Shown here: in pieces, positions 2,918 to 5,702 of the stretch
Numbering within the stretch: the first letter of the stretch is position 1
Layout: each line of letters starts with the position of its first letter
Assembly (NCBI GenBank): GCA_031265345.1
Contig: JAISCU010000435.1
Coordinates: forward strand, 1-5,702
Direction of reading: 5' to 3'
DNA length: 5,702 bases
Source: Bifidobacteriaceae bacterium
GTDB taxonomy: Bacteria > Actinomycetota > Actinomycetes > Actinomycetales > WQXJ01
Notes under the pieces: generated by a model
Seen by the model: only the letters and a program-made list of their open reading frames with translations
Database searches by the model: none
What the model was told of the DNA's origin: nothing
Translations under genes and position numbers: made by a program

Positions 2918-3007
2918 TCAGCGCCTGTAGACGTGGCGACGGTGTCCCAGCGTCCCCACGACGACCAACAGGACGCGATCCTCCACCTCGAGGGCCGTTA
3001 CGTGCAT
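2918..3007 (-). pseudogene. Probable RelE/ParE toxin C-terminal remnant
   Basis: A 29-codon open frame (ATG 3007-3005, TGA 2920-2918) encodes MHVTALEVEDRVLLVVVGTL followed by GHRRHVYRR. The pattern of an acidic turn, a run of Leu/Val strand residues, then a GHRRxVYRR end is what I know from the last third of RelE/ParE-family mRNA-interferase or gyrase toxins. The N-terminal two-thirds of such a toxin is absent: upstream, the same frame runs through the 3' part of the MerR gene and has no toxin-like sequence. No antitoxin gene is visible nearby. The ATG overlaps the MerR stop codon (TGATG), so the short peptide could still be translated by coupling. The likely history is a toxin gene cut off by the event that placed the MerR gene here. 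The match is short and could be chance. Confidence 0.5.
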
Positions 3008-3945
3008 CAGGCCGCGGCGATCTTGGCCTCGACCAGTTCGATCAGGCGGCGTTGGGCCGGGTTCAGTGAGTCGGCGGCATGCTCTTTCAGCAATTCGGCG
3101 GCCGCGTCCAGCGACGATTGGCCAGTTCGCGGATCGGCCGATCGGCCGCCTTGGCAGTCCCCGCGCGCGACCCGGTCCGCGCGCCCTGCCTGGTCCGCGC
3201 GCCCGGAGCGGTCCTCGAGTCCGGTGCCGTCCAGCTGCCCGGCGCGGTTCCCGTGTACGATGCCGTCCTCGTTGCCCGCGCCGCCCGCGCGTCCAGCGCC
3301 GTTCCCGTGCTCGGCGCCGTCCCAAAACCGGGCGGCCAACGGGCCCAGCACCACCACCATCTCGCTCGCCAAGGCCTCCAGTTCGGTTTCGGAAGTGTCC
3401 GGAGCGAGCTGGTCGACCCGCTCCGAGAGGTCCATGACCATCGGAAGGACCGCCGGATCGGCCATCGCCTCATACAGGCCGCCCACGCGCGCCGAGTCCT
3501 CCGGGCCGATCAAACTGGCCAACAGGACCGCCTGGTCACGATCATCCCGAATCCACTGGGACCGGGCGCCTCCCGCCAGGTAGGCCTCGAAGTGCCTGGC
3601 CCATTCGACGGGAACGTCCGGCGGCACGTGCAATTCCGCGAGTCGCGCGATCATCTGTCGCTGTTGCTGCAGGTGTTCGATCTGGTCCGCCAGTTCGCGG
3701 TCGAGCGATTCCAGCACGGAAGCCGCGTCCTGCGCCTCGTCATCCAGCAACGGTGCCATCTGATCAAGCGCCATGCCCAAGGAAGCCAGGCGGCGGATTC
3801 TCAGCACCCGCACCAGGTCATGCACGTCGTACCGGCGGTAGCCGTTGAGGTCGCGATCCGGCTCGGCCAGCACCCCGATCTGGTGGTAGTGCCGCAAGGC
3901 GCGGACCGACACCCCGGCCAGGCGGGCGAGTTCAGCGCTACGCAT
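3007..3945 (-). CDS. MerR-family transcriptional regulator with repeat insert
   Basis: A 312-residue regulator. The MerR DNA-binding domain is at residues 1-70: helix-turn-helix MRSAELARLAGVSVRALRHY, then the wing region with GYRRYD and VLRIRRLASLGMALDQM. A Gln/Leu-rich helix at about 75-105 is probably the dimerisation coiled coil. Residues 110-210 form an alpha-helical C-terminal domain whose ligand I cannot infer. Residues 211-277 are a low-complexity stretch rich in Gly, Arg, Ala, Asp and Asn, with HGN(G/R)AG twice and GRAD-type pieces, followed by a normal-looking helical end, residues 278-312. The stretch looks like an insertion into a loop. ATG 3945 has GGAAG (3952-3956 on the opposite strand) 6 bp upstream. 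MerR proteins usually control a neighbouring gene or themselves by twisting long-spacer promoters; the MFS gene upstream is the obvious candidate target. Confidence 0.88.
   Translation of the reverse strand: MRSAELARLAGVSVRALRHYHQIGVLAEPDRDLNGYRRYDVHDLVRVLRIRRLASLGMALDQMAPLLDDEAQDAASVLESLDRELADQIEHLQQQRQMIARLAELHVPPDVPVEWARHFEAYLAGGARSQWIRDDRDQAVLLASLIGPEDSARVGGLYEAMADPAVLPMVMDLSERVDQLAPDTSETELEALASEMVVVLGPLAARFWDGAEHGNGAGRAGGAGNEDGIVHGNRAGQLDGTGLEDRSGRADQAGRADRVARGDCQGGRSADPRTGQSSLDAAAELLKEHAADSLNPAQRRLIELVEAKIAAA
3115..3315 (-). repeat. Low-complexity in-frame insert within the MerR gene
   Basis: This segment encodes residues 211-277 and is biased to Gly, Arg, Ala, Asp and Asn, unlike the flanking helical domains. 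Much of it reads in five-residue steps (for example DGTGL, EDRSG, RADQA, GRADR). On the plus strand GTTCCCGTG occurs at both 3247 and 3301, followed by similar sequence through GCCGTCC, a spacing of 54 bp or 18 codons. The composition matches the pentad repeats of the neighbouring MFS gene. Confidence 0.6.
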
Positions 3946-4069
3946 GGTGTGCTTCCGTTCCTGGCTGGGCGGCGAGGCGGTCGGGCGCGACCGCTCCAGC
4001 CAGCGTATCGCTCTGGCCGGATAGCACGGTCGTCACGACCTATCCATGTCGATGCCGCGATCCGTCGGC
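3946..4069. promoter_or_regulatory. MerR gene leader with nested inverted repeats
   Basis: Just upstream of the MerR Shine-Dalgarno, CTGGCTGG (3961-3968) pairs with CCAGCCAG (3996-4003). Inside it, GCGGTCG (3977-3983) pairs with CGACCGC (3988-3994) around a four-base loop. Together they could form a stable stem with an asymmetric internal bulge. A separate 6-bp dyad, GGTCGT-C-ACGACC, lies at 4028-4040. These are candidates for a leader hairpin and for an autoregulatory operator. No clear -10/-35 pair could be fixed. Confidence 0.5.
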
Positions 4070-4349
4070 GCAACCTCCGGGGAATTGCGCGTTCCGGTCC
4101 ATCGAGTCCGCTGGTTTGACCCCTGAGACTCGTCGAGCCCGCTGTTTCCCATGCGGTTGTCCGTCGAGCCCGCTACTTTGGCTCCGGCCCTTTCGCGTTT
4201 CGCCTGGTCAGCGCGTTCCAGGTGTGTCAGGACGCGCGCAAAATCCCGGACTCGACGAACAGCGGAGCGCAAACCAGCGGACTCGACGGGGTTGAGTGCC
4301 CAAGACAGCGGAGTCGATGAACAACGGGGCGCAAATCGACGGACTCGGA
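4070..4349. repeat. Mirror-image arrays of 31-bp units
   Basis: A core related to GTCGAGTCCGCTG recurs at exact 31-bp steps. In plus orientation cores start at 4101, 4132 and 4163, with a degenerate unit at 4070. In minus orientation cores start at 4256, 4287, 4318 and 4349 (reading leftwards). Both sets are symmetric about 4209.5, and 4163 and 4256 are 93 bp (3 x 31) apart, so both arms sit on one lattice. The rest of the unit is looser, around TTTGCGC-CCG-TGTTC. Mirror partners match at roughly 16-21 of 31 positions in the ones I aligned. The middle, about 4190-4228, does not match itself. Since 31 is not divisible by 3, the arrays are not protein repeats, and open frames across them are not credible genes. 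The block lies between the MFS stop and the MerR start. Function unknown. Confidence 0.8.
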
Positions 4350-4455
4350 ACGGGCGCGCCCCTGGTGGGGGCACCGACCACCAGCCCGGCAGCGACACGG
4401 ACAGGCCCTCGGCCGTGGACGGCAGGGCCTCGGCCGGCGACGGCGGCGGAGCCTT
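4350..4455. other. Low-complexity GC-rich spacer
   Basis: This continues the gene-free region 3946-4501. It contains an imperfect 21-bp tandem duplication with CTCGGCCG at 4408 and again at 4429, each followed by a similar GAC/GGC stretch. No credible gene, promoter or terminator was seen. It is the 3' flank of the MFS gene. Confidence 0.45.
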
Positions 4456-4545
4456 GGCTGGCGGCGCAATTCTCGCTGGCCTCACACCTGCCGCTGGCGT
4501 CTCACCTGCGGCTAGCGTGACAGCTCCCGCTGGCGGCACGGTCTG
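4456..4545. repeat. Five imperfect 18-bp tandem units across the MFS stop
   Basis: Units begin at 4456, 4474, 4492, 4510 and 4528, each opening with (C/G)GCT(G/A)GC. The pair at 4474 and 4492 is closest, sharing CGCTGGC and CACCTGC. The array crosses the MFS stop codon at 4502-4504, so on the minus strand it supplies the last residues of the MFS C-terminal tail as well as 3' untranslated DNA. Confidence 0.65.
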
Positions 4546-5702
4546 CGCGACCGTCGCAGCCCCCGGTCGGCGCCACGCGCGCGTTCAGGTCGCGCAACGG
4601 CGGCGCCACCAGGGCGACAACGGCCAAGACCAACCAAATCCCGGCCGCCGTGTAAGCAGCCGCGTGGACACCAGCCTGGCTGGTCAGCACAGCCGCCCCG
4701 AAGATGCCGATGGCCGGCGCCAAGGTCATCAAGGAGTTCTGCGTCCCCATGATCCGGCCGCGCAGGGCCTCGGGAATGCGTTCAATACCGAGCACTCCGA
4801 TCAGAGCGGAGAACATCCCAGAGGACAGGCCAACCAAGGTAGCGCCCACGAACACGACCAGCGGCGAGGCCAGGGTCGCGCTGATCGCGAACCCGATGGC
4901 CGTGCCGATCAAGCCGATGGCGAACCAGGTCCGCCGCGAGCCGCGCATCCCCACCGCCGCGTAAACTCCCGCACCGATCAACATGCCGGCCGCCAGACAA
5001 CTGAGCACGAATCCGGCCAGCCCCGGTTTCCCGATGACGGTGAAATACACCGGGAACACCAGCGCTTGCAGAGCCCCGACCACGATCACCGACACCAGCG
5101 ACAACGCGGTCATCGCAACCAAGTATCGACTGGCGAGAAGAGCCTGCCAGCCCTCCCTCAGGTCCGCCCAGCCGATCCCGTGACCGGTTTCGCTACGCAC
5201 GATGCCGTGCCCCGGCCCGCCACCGCCATCGCCAGTTTCCGCGGGGCTGGCCTGGGAGCCTTGGCCCGCGGCGGGTTGGCCCGCGCCGGTTCGACGCGCG
5301 TCGGCTCGTCCTGAGTCTGGCTGGCGTGCGTCGGAGTCGCGCACATCCGCCCGCCCTGCATCGGGTTGCCTCGTATCGGGTTGCCTCGTATCGGGTTGAC
5401 GCCCGTCGGCTTGCCCGGCGTCCGGTTGGCGCCCGTCGAGTCCGTTGCCGTCGGCCTGTCCCCCGCAGGGGCGCGCGGCGGGCTGGTCGCCGTCAGGCTG
5501 GCGCACGTCGGCCGTCCCCCGGACGGGTAACGGCGGGGCCGGTCGGACCCGGTCGAGACGGCGCGCGTCAGGTTGGTGCCCGCCAGGTTGGCACCCGTCG
5601 CGGTCGCTCCCCTCGGCCCGTCCCCCGCTCGGGCGGCGCGCGGCCGGTCGCCCTGCGTCAGGCTGGCGTGCGTCGGAGTCGGGCACGTCCGCCCGCCCCG
5701 CG
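4502..5702 (-). CDS. MFS transporter, C-terminal half with expanded central loop (partial)
   Basis: The frame is open to the right edge; GTG 5686 is an internal codon choice, not a supported start. Numbering from 5686, about 190 residues after the repeats form six hydrophobic segments at roughly 190-216, 224-246, 254-272, 276-298, 317-335 and 345-362. These correspond to TM7-TM12 of a twelve-helix Major Facilitator exporter. The loop motif IPEALRGRIMGTQNS (303-317) resembles MFS drug or siderophore exporters of the EntS type. TM1-TM6 must lie beyond the window. Residues 1-145 are therefore the central cytoplasmic loop, swollen by pentad repeats such as (T/A)RQPD, AGRAD and GQADG; a Gly-rich linker and WADLREGWQALLASRY lead into TM7. 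The C-terminal tail also carries a DGRAD piece. The substrate is unknown. The MerR gene downstream on the same strand is its probable regulator. Confidence 0.8.
   Translation of the reverse strand, partial: AGRADVPDSDARQPDAGRPAARRPSGGRAEGSDRDGCQPGGHQPDARRLDRVRPAPPLPVRGTADVRQPDGDQPAARPCGGQADGNGLDGRQPDAGQADGRQPDTRQPDTRQPDAGRADVRDSDARQPDSGRADARRTGAGQPAAGQGSQASPAETGDGGGGPGHGIVRSETGHGIGWADLREGWQALLASRYLVAMTALSLVSVIVVGALQALVFPVYFTVIGKPGLAGFVLSCLAAGMLIGAGVYAAVGMRGSRRTWFAIGLIGTAIGFAISATLASPLVVFVGATLVGLSSGMFSALIGVLGIERIPEALRGRIMGTQNSLMTLAPAIGIFGAAVLTSQAGVHAAAYTAAGIWLVLAVVALVAPPLRDLNARVAPTGGCDGRADRAASGSCHASRR
5252..5702 (-). repeat. 15-bp in-frame repeats encoding pentapeptides in the MFS loop
   Basis: The DNA has a 15-nt period. 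The clearest case on the plus strand is TCGGGTTGCCTCGTA at 5361-5375, repeated exactly at 5376-5390 and begun again at 5391. A longer duplication links 5319-5360 and 5661-5702, which agree at 38 of 42 positions and are 342 bp (114 codons) apart, so the frame is kept. The encoded loop is rich in Arg, Gln, Pro, Asp, Ala and Gly. The array continues past the window edge. Confidence 0.85.

Follow-up and report, generated by a model that had tools for sequence, protein, structure and literature searches.

The block at positions 4070–4349 of a 5,702-nt stretch of Bifidobacteriaceae DNA (hereafter the window, meaning the whole stretch that was analyzed) consists of short repeats in two facing orientations, which raises the question of what such an array does and whether it belongs to the genes beside it. 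It is flanked by the start of a MerR-family regulator gene (3007–3945, minus strand) and the stop of an MFS-like frame (4502–5686, minus strand), both of them neighbors outside the element. A first reading made from the sequence alone (hereafter the sequence-only reading) had offered an operator between these two genes, a bidirectional terminator or folded RNA, and a mobile intergenic repeat as candidate roles.

Two Facing Ladders of 31-bp Units

Numbered outward from the center, arm A is composed of minus-strand units at 4226–4256, 4257–4287, 4288–4318, and 4319–4349, the last of which is degenerate, and arm B of plus-strand units at 4163–4193, 4132–4162, and 4101–4131, possibly followed by a fourth at 4070–4100, a decayed lattice position that is in register but has lost its unit start. 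These seven units and one decayed position agree with the seven to eight copies counted earlier. The unit cores start at 4101, 4132, and 4163 on the plus strand and occupy 4244–4256, 4275–4287, 4306–4318, and 4337–4349 on the minus strand, the last with 4 mismatches in 13 positions. Both ladders have a spacing of 31, and because the coordinates of partner units add up to 8419, the mirror axis lies at 4209.5. This axis cuts through a core that is conserved and asymmetric, GCTGACCAGnnnAAACG (4196–4212, minus strand), between the T and the G of its TGACC; the core motif, which reads GCTGACCAGGCGAAACG from 4212 to 4196, also centers the lattices of relatives. The core at the axis had not been described in the sequence-only reading, and neither had the make-up of the unit or its restriction to single genomes, both of which are taken up below.

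A scan for mirrored triples over the intergenic stretch 3946–4501, covering all periods of 20–45 and gaps of 0–120, returns as its best solution a period of 31 at 4100/4245 with a score of 80 of 91. The same scan on 200 dinucleotide shuffles gives a mean of 48.8 (sd 1.6) and a maximum of 55, and the exact mirrored lattice claimed at the outset thus stands far above shuffled sequence, a comparison that had been set beforehand. The units at 4101 and 4318 do both start with ATCGA, as had been pointed out.

The block is not evidently coding. Six ORFs of at least 60 aa overlap it, five of which (all but 4296–4520, plus strand) have no match in Pfam, and a period of 31 is not a multiple of 3; the rejection of a protein-coding repeat is upheld. 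So is that of a CRISPR array, given the facing orientations, the degenerate repeats, and a variable part of only 8–10 bp. We found no known structured RNA, as Rfam gives 0 matches at E ≤ 1 for the window and none for the elements of 16 loci from related genomes. A scan that knows the sigma-70 consensus only finds 0 promoter-like sites in 3940–4510, and no terminator-like site was found.

The surroundings of the lattice are themselves repetitive. Two 21-bp direct repeats lie just beyond it at 4402–4443, and tandem repeats of 15, 18, and 30 bp occur at 3157–3248, 4474–4539, and 5360–5438, within the MerR gene and the MFS-like frame. In the MFS-like frame, the first ~190 residues are low-complexity repeats, and the Pfam match spans no more than half of the profile (residues 200–363 against profile positions 8–173 of 347).

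The Same Build in Related Genomes

A pattern scan of species genomes for two cores 8–38 bp apart returned 92 stretches, only one of which (L052) carries the same mirrored 31-bp array; the remaining 91 look like chance or coding repeats. L052 belongs to the metagenome-assembled genome Bifidobacteriaceae bacterium Md513_bin114 (G001), which we guess to come from a termite gut and which contains mirrored arrays on six contigs. We define the family as the 18 genomes around G001, the nearest named match of the window element; the MurB protein of the window is 67–68% identical to those of four of its members (G006, G014, G011, and G009), which probably places the origin of the window close to this family. 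A BLAST search with the window block against the 18 genomes gives weak matches (best E 0.007; 16 of 18 genomes at E ≤ 1), many of which lie at the mirror center.

Mirrored 31-bp lattices surround the core in G014, G006, and G009 as well, each with a private unit sequence: approximately CGAATGTAGGTTTCCGTCTGG in G014, CGACCCCAACGTTTGTCGC in G006, and CCGAGTTCGACGTTCTGCATC in G009. At E ≤ 0.001, the G009 block matches only its own genome among the 18 (34 pieces), and so does the G014 block (24 pieces). Four G001 copies were compared pairwise: five of the six pairs align over 496–544 bp at 72–90%, the sixth aligns in pieces at 84%, and the copies share a left edge near a unit start. Twenty further places were fetched blind from weak BLAST matches, not all of them at the core, and two proved to be lattices with the register kept within 1 nt, one in G007 (4 + 5 units) and one in G010 (2 + 3 units, with one spacing of 30). 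With these two added, at least 6 of the 18 family genomes (G001, G006, G007, G009, G010, and G014) carry the lattice in addition to the window. The search of relatives that had been called for thus recovers the same build beside diverse genes, and the window block is very probably one copy of a dispersed, mainly intergenic class of elements, dispersal being what is seen in the relatives. Among the roles first proposed, that of a mobile intergenic repeat is in line with this distribution.

The core motif reaches farther than the lattice. With two mismatches allowed, the pattern CGCTGACCAGNNNAAACGNG occurs 816 times in the 18 family genomes, compared with 63 times for the reversed pattern, and 649 versus 206 times in 111 non-family genomes (from an order-wide draw of 119), which amounts to 45.3 versus 3.5 per genome inside the family and 5.8 versus 1.9 outside. 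The core motif thus exceeds its control outside the family too, although far less than inside, where much of the excess is due to a second class of hairpin elements described below. The G001 core reads TGACCTGnnnTTTC, and unit 1 of one arm is 46 nt away from it, as in the window; unit 1 of the other arm is at +47 (window and most G009 arrays), +48 (G014, G006, and three G009 arrays), or +58 (G001). A literature text search for GTCGAGTCCGCTG gave a sole match, a paper on Monascus, and a word search of the literature found no described 31-bp or core-and-arm repeats.

Anatomy and Spacing of the Units

Units were called with one position matrix for each of five sources (window, G001, G006, G009, and G014). 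Among 142 same-strand neighbor pairs, the spacing is 31 in 129, 41–42 in 7, 30 in 4, and 28 and 59 in one each. The first units of facing arms are 93 (8 cases), 94 (18), 95 (1), or 104 (5) apart, with 67, 63, and 20 seen once each. The larger values differ from the common ones by about one helical turn (104 = 93 + 11; 41–42 = 31 + 10–11), and the spacing exceptions are mostly one turn longer. The idea of helical phasing, put forward earlier from the 31-bp period of the window, is upheld. Arms contain up to ~six units.

In all five sources, the unit consists of ~21 conserved bp and 8–10 variable bp in the same register, with positions 3–23 conserved apart from a dip at 13–14 and positions 24–31 variable. 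The registers of the five profiles agree with a mean r of 0.55, a value reached in 0 of 5000 random shifts. In a Fourier test, conservation within the unit shows no 10.3-bp rhythm (p 0.57; power 0.6 at k = 3). From this anatomy we infer that the unit may be a bipartite site of two helical turns followed by a one-turn linker.

The G014 arrays change orientation more than once. They contain 45 back-to-back contacts, which are minus-then-plus at 30 in 27 cases and at 29 and 40 in one case each, and plus-then-minus at 1 in 16 cases; because 43 contacts survive a stricter threshold and remain on the lattice, we regard these reversals as real.

A Putative Protein-Binding Mosaic Repeat

The reading that we prefer, at about even confidence, is that of a mosaic repeat resembling the bacterial interspersed mosaic elements (BIMEs), whose arms are putative helically phased sites for a sequence-specific protein. 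Because elements of the same build with private unit letters are scattered through the relatives, the element looks like an unfamiliar, dispersed kind of landing strip on which a DNA-binding protein would settle, and not like a switch of the genes next to it. An asymmetric short core marks the axis, and ~21-bp sites, one every 31 bp (three helical turns), aim at it. A sequence-specific DNA-binding protein would sit on these sites along one face of the helix, in two rows that face each other and meet at the core; the resulting nucleoprotein node would compare with a BIME. The letters of the sites and the specificity of the protein would drift together in each lineage, the elements would spread inside a genome as non-autonomous repeats, and arms would be exchangeable at the core. 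Three observations count against this proposal: the unit has no 10.3-bp rhythm, the likeness of mirror partners and an excess of wobble-keeping differences are what a hairpin predicts, and 6 of 24 arrays overlap an ORF.

A more ambitious version, which we consider speculative and on balance improbable, is a family-wide modular system in which one shared core is combined with interchangeable arms, and in which the phased ~21-bp sites would be rewritten per lineage as a rapidly evolving DNA-binding protein and its sites across the genome chase each other; the elements might then act as chromosome-folding nodes, or recombination at the core might move them and give them new arms. Core, register, and spacing are constant while the letters of the sites vary between genomes. 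Were the protein reading true, the arrays would be a natural record of how a DNA-binding specificity and its sites evolve together, and would represent a new architecture among the interspersed repeats of bacteria, in a group that has been little studied. The consensus that each genome provides would open the partner protein to direct pull-down.

Folding and a Second Class of Elements

The main rival to a protein-bound array is a fold of the whole element, as a long RNA hairpin or a DNA cruciform: the two arms would pair along ~90 bp and leave the core as the terminal loop, and the lattice would be a by-product of tandem growth. Folding of both strands had been suggested, and in 24 elements with 60 shuffles each as controls, most whole elements outdo their shuffles on either strand (z –0.1 to –14.6). 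The cores alone (z –2.2 to +1.8) and the arms alone (z –2.4 to +2.5) do not fold on their own. Any inverted array folds, and the two strands do so about equally well. Mirror partners share more identical positions of 31 than non-partners in the window (19.0 vs. 17.1), in G001 (21.4 vs. 19.8), and, from very few cells, in G006 (18.3 vs. 17.0), hardly so in G009 (19.3 vs. 19.0), and not in G014 (17.3 vs. 17.8). The earlier argument from shared substitutions, that the mirror symmetry is old or maintained, is consequently not general. Pooled, the values are 19.15 versus 18.66 (p 0.01), and without unit 1 the p value is 0.19. Wobble-keeping differences (GU) exceed wobble-breaking ones (AC) by 175 to 138, with related copies counted. 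Since the likeness of partners is absent in G014, weak in G009, and at p 0.19 without unit 1, the hairpin is not what the arrays chiefly conserve; in addition, it leaves the exact 31-bp period across differing sequences and the register of 21 conserved and 8 variable positions unexplained and is accompanied by no Rfam match. We therefore judge it unlikely as the explanation of the lattices.

A second class of elements, ~130–150 bp long with one hairpin per side, accounts for many of the core matches in G004, G006, G007, G009, G011, and G014; in many of the copies that were folded, the core forms a hairpin as well. Such loci are abundant (L181, L185, L204, L206, and L211–L229, in G004, G006, G011, and G014), their core hairpin forming around GnTGACCnGnnGAAACGCGG. 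In G004, three subfamilies seem by eye to keep pairs with different letters. The examples tested have no match in Rfam, and the class is possibly a new structured RNA or hairpin repeat family. A covariance model built for the class detects the window core (4194–4236) at E 0.14 only, so the kinship of the class with the lattices depends mostly on the short motif that they have in common. On a mixed alignment, poor in its inner part, RNAalifold keeps 6 pairs, one with changes on both sides.

Genomic Context and Possible Exchange of Arms

No GC-frame ORF overlaps 18 of the 24 arrays, whereas the other 6 overlap one; the two largest of the overlapping ORFs, both in G006, belong to no Pfam family. 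We scanned 20 proteins near at most 20 arrays (18 encoded beside an array and 2 across one), 13 of which have Pfam families of 12 kinds, and found no transposase or integrase among them.

One G001 element (L101), the only clear chimera, joins two kinds of arm at the core. Its left 31-bp arm matches other copies until ~26 nt before the core, with the nearest unit 60 nt from the core instead of 46, and its right side, from the CTGACC of the core onward, is of another kind, with the unit CGAAAGGTCA and 82% identity over 99 bp to L203. The L203 block itself matches 70 pieces in G001, compared with 5 in G016 and a single one in G009, and those outside G001 lie at the core or are short. G001 also contains a very abundant second arm type, CGAAAGGTCAATTCCG (L304 and L307–L332), in which two units ~21 bp apart on one side accompany GCTGACCTGnnnAAACG or remnants thereof.

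Such mosaic contacts with other repeats, the genome-private units, and the variable number of units would also be expected of a neutral tandem or interspersed repeat that has no function in binding, multiplies by copying, and owes its regularity in each genome to slippage and conversion. The period, register, orientation to the core, and distance from it are nevertheless retained in seven sources despite differing letters, and we find this explanation quite unlikely. A site resembling a phage attachment site (attP), with the core as recombinase crossover, the units as arm-type sites, and core recombination swapping arms, would account for the conserved asymmetric core between facing phased arms and for L101, which unites a 31-bp arm and another kind of arm at the core; it is at odds with the many copies per genome, the lack of an integrase among the 20 scanned proteins, and the single clear chimera among the fetched loci, with its displaced left unit, and is in our estimation quite unlikely as well. 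An operator of the adjoining MerR or MFS gene is highly improbable, even though the block lies upstream of the MerR start and two G001 copies have a regulator or MFS gene on one side (a TetR gene at L096, another MFS gene at L102), because elements of the same build adjoin 12 other kinds of gene in the relatives, which makes the original proposal too narrow, and because the sigma-70 scan leaves no promoter hexamers between which a MerR operator dyad could lie.

We also rejected a phage or plasmid origin: 50,697 phage records contain no similar DNA, a plasmid search gives no match, and the 83 stretches returned by a viral pattern scan include no second array. Mobilization by a DUF222/HNH element, suggested by G048, was dropped because its distance to the core is not fixed. 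At one mismatch, the core is found at 4 of 30 DUF222 loci in the family and 0 of 18 MurB control loci, a fifth neighbor pair being G009:C56. In G048, four element copies (L284–L287) are similar from CTGACCTGGGyAAACGGGG onward, with unrelated DNA leftward, and are followed by an ORF whose product resembles a DUF222/13E12 protein; a core-like motif can thus form the end of a gene-bearing repeat.

Comparison with Known Repeat Systems

The tyrosine recombinase attP has a core flanked by arms with repeated arm-type sites. The lattices share this layout, but differ in their many copies per genome, in their far more regular arms, and in having no integrase gene beside the examined arrays. In a CRISPR array, the repeats are identical and all point the same way, and the unique spacers are about as long as a repeat; the lattices also have regular repeats with variable stretches between them, but in two facing orientations, with a variable part of 8–10 bp, ~six units per arm at most, and dispersed copies.

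Stoperators are asymmetric sites at which a phage repressor blocks transcription. Those of mycobacteriophages are numerous, are all bound by a single protein that has two DNA-binding domains, and have evolving specificities (PMC9283540). Many asymmetric sites are present here too, the binding protein being putative; stoperators are scattered in phage genomes, whereas the present lattices face a core in bacterial chromosomes and have no phage match.

Among known kinds, BIMEs come nearest to the element. BIMEs and their REP units are dispersed, extragenic, and regularly spaced, with opposite orientations around inter-repeat stretches, and are reported to bind IHF and gyrase (PMC2817692); the arrangement is found here as well, and the G014 arrays flip back and forth on the lattice. 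The lattices differ in their longer, 31-bp spacing, in units that are mostly not strong palindromes, are genome-private, and stand several to an arm in the same orientation, and in the aiming of all units at one shared core. The REP unit is an imperfect palindrome mostly starting with GTAG; the present arms are unfolded alone, and the five unit consensuses have no GTAG start and, by eye, weak partial dyads. Y1_Tnp is found in 6 of the 18 genomes and in 4 of the 6 lattice genomes (G006, G007, G009, and G014); none was found in G001 and G010, genomes in many contigs in which absence is not proof. Of 8 Y1 loci, none has a lattice by the core test and one (L365) has a hairpin-class element, in place of the RAYT gene flanked by repeats of REP systems. 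Because neither the palindromic unit nor the RAYT link was found, we do not file the element as a BIME.

Three further occurrences of these sequences are of note. At L182 (G014:C22:39558-40213), six core motifs follow one another at ~128-bp steps in a tandem array of a core-containing element. At two loci outside the family, L293 (G040) and L300 (G056), CTGACCTGCrCAAACG lies upstream of the same gene start, presumably that of a CarD-like protein. Three G009 arrays (L232, L233, and L234) adjoin or are broken up by one and the same insertion-sequence-like end, CTGTCAAGCTG.., as if they were preferred targets.
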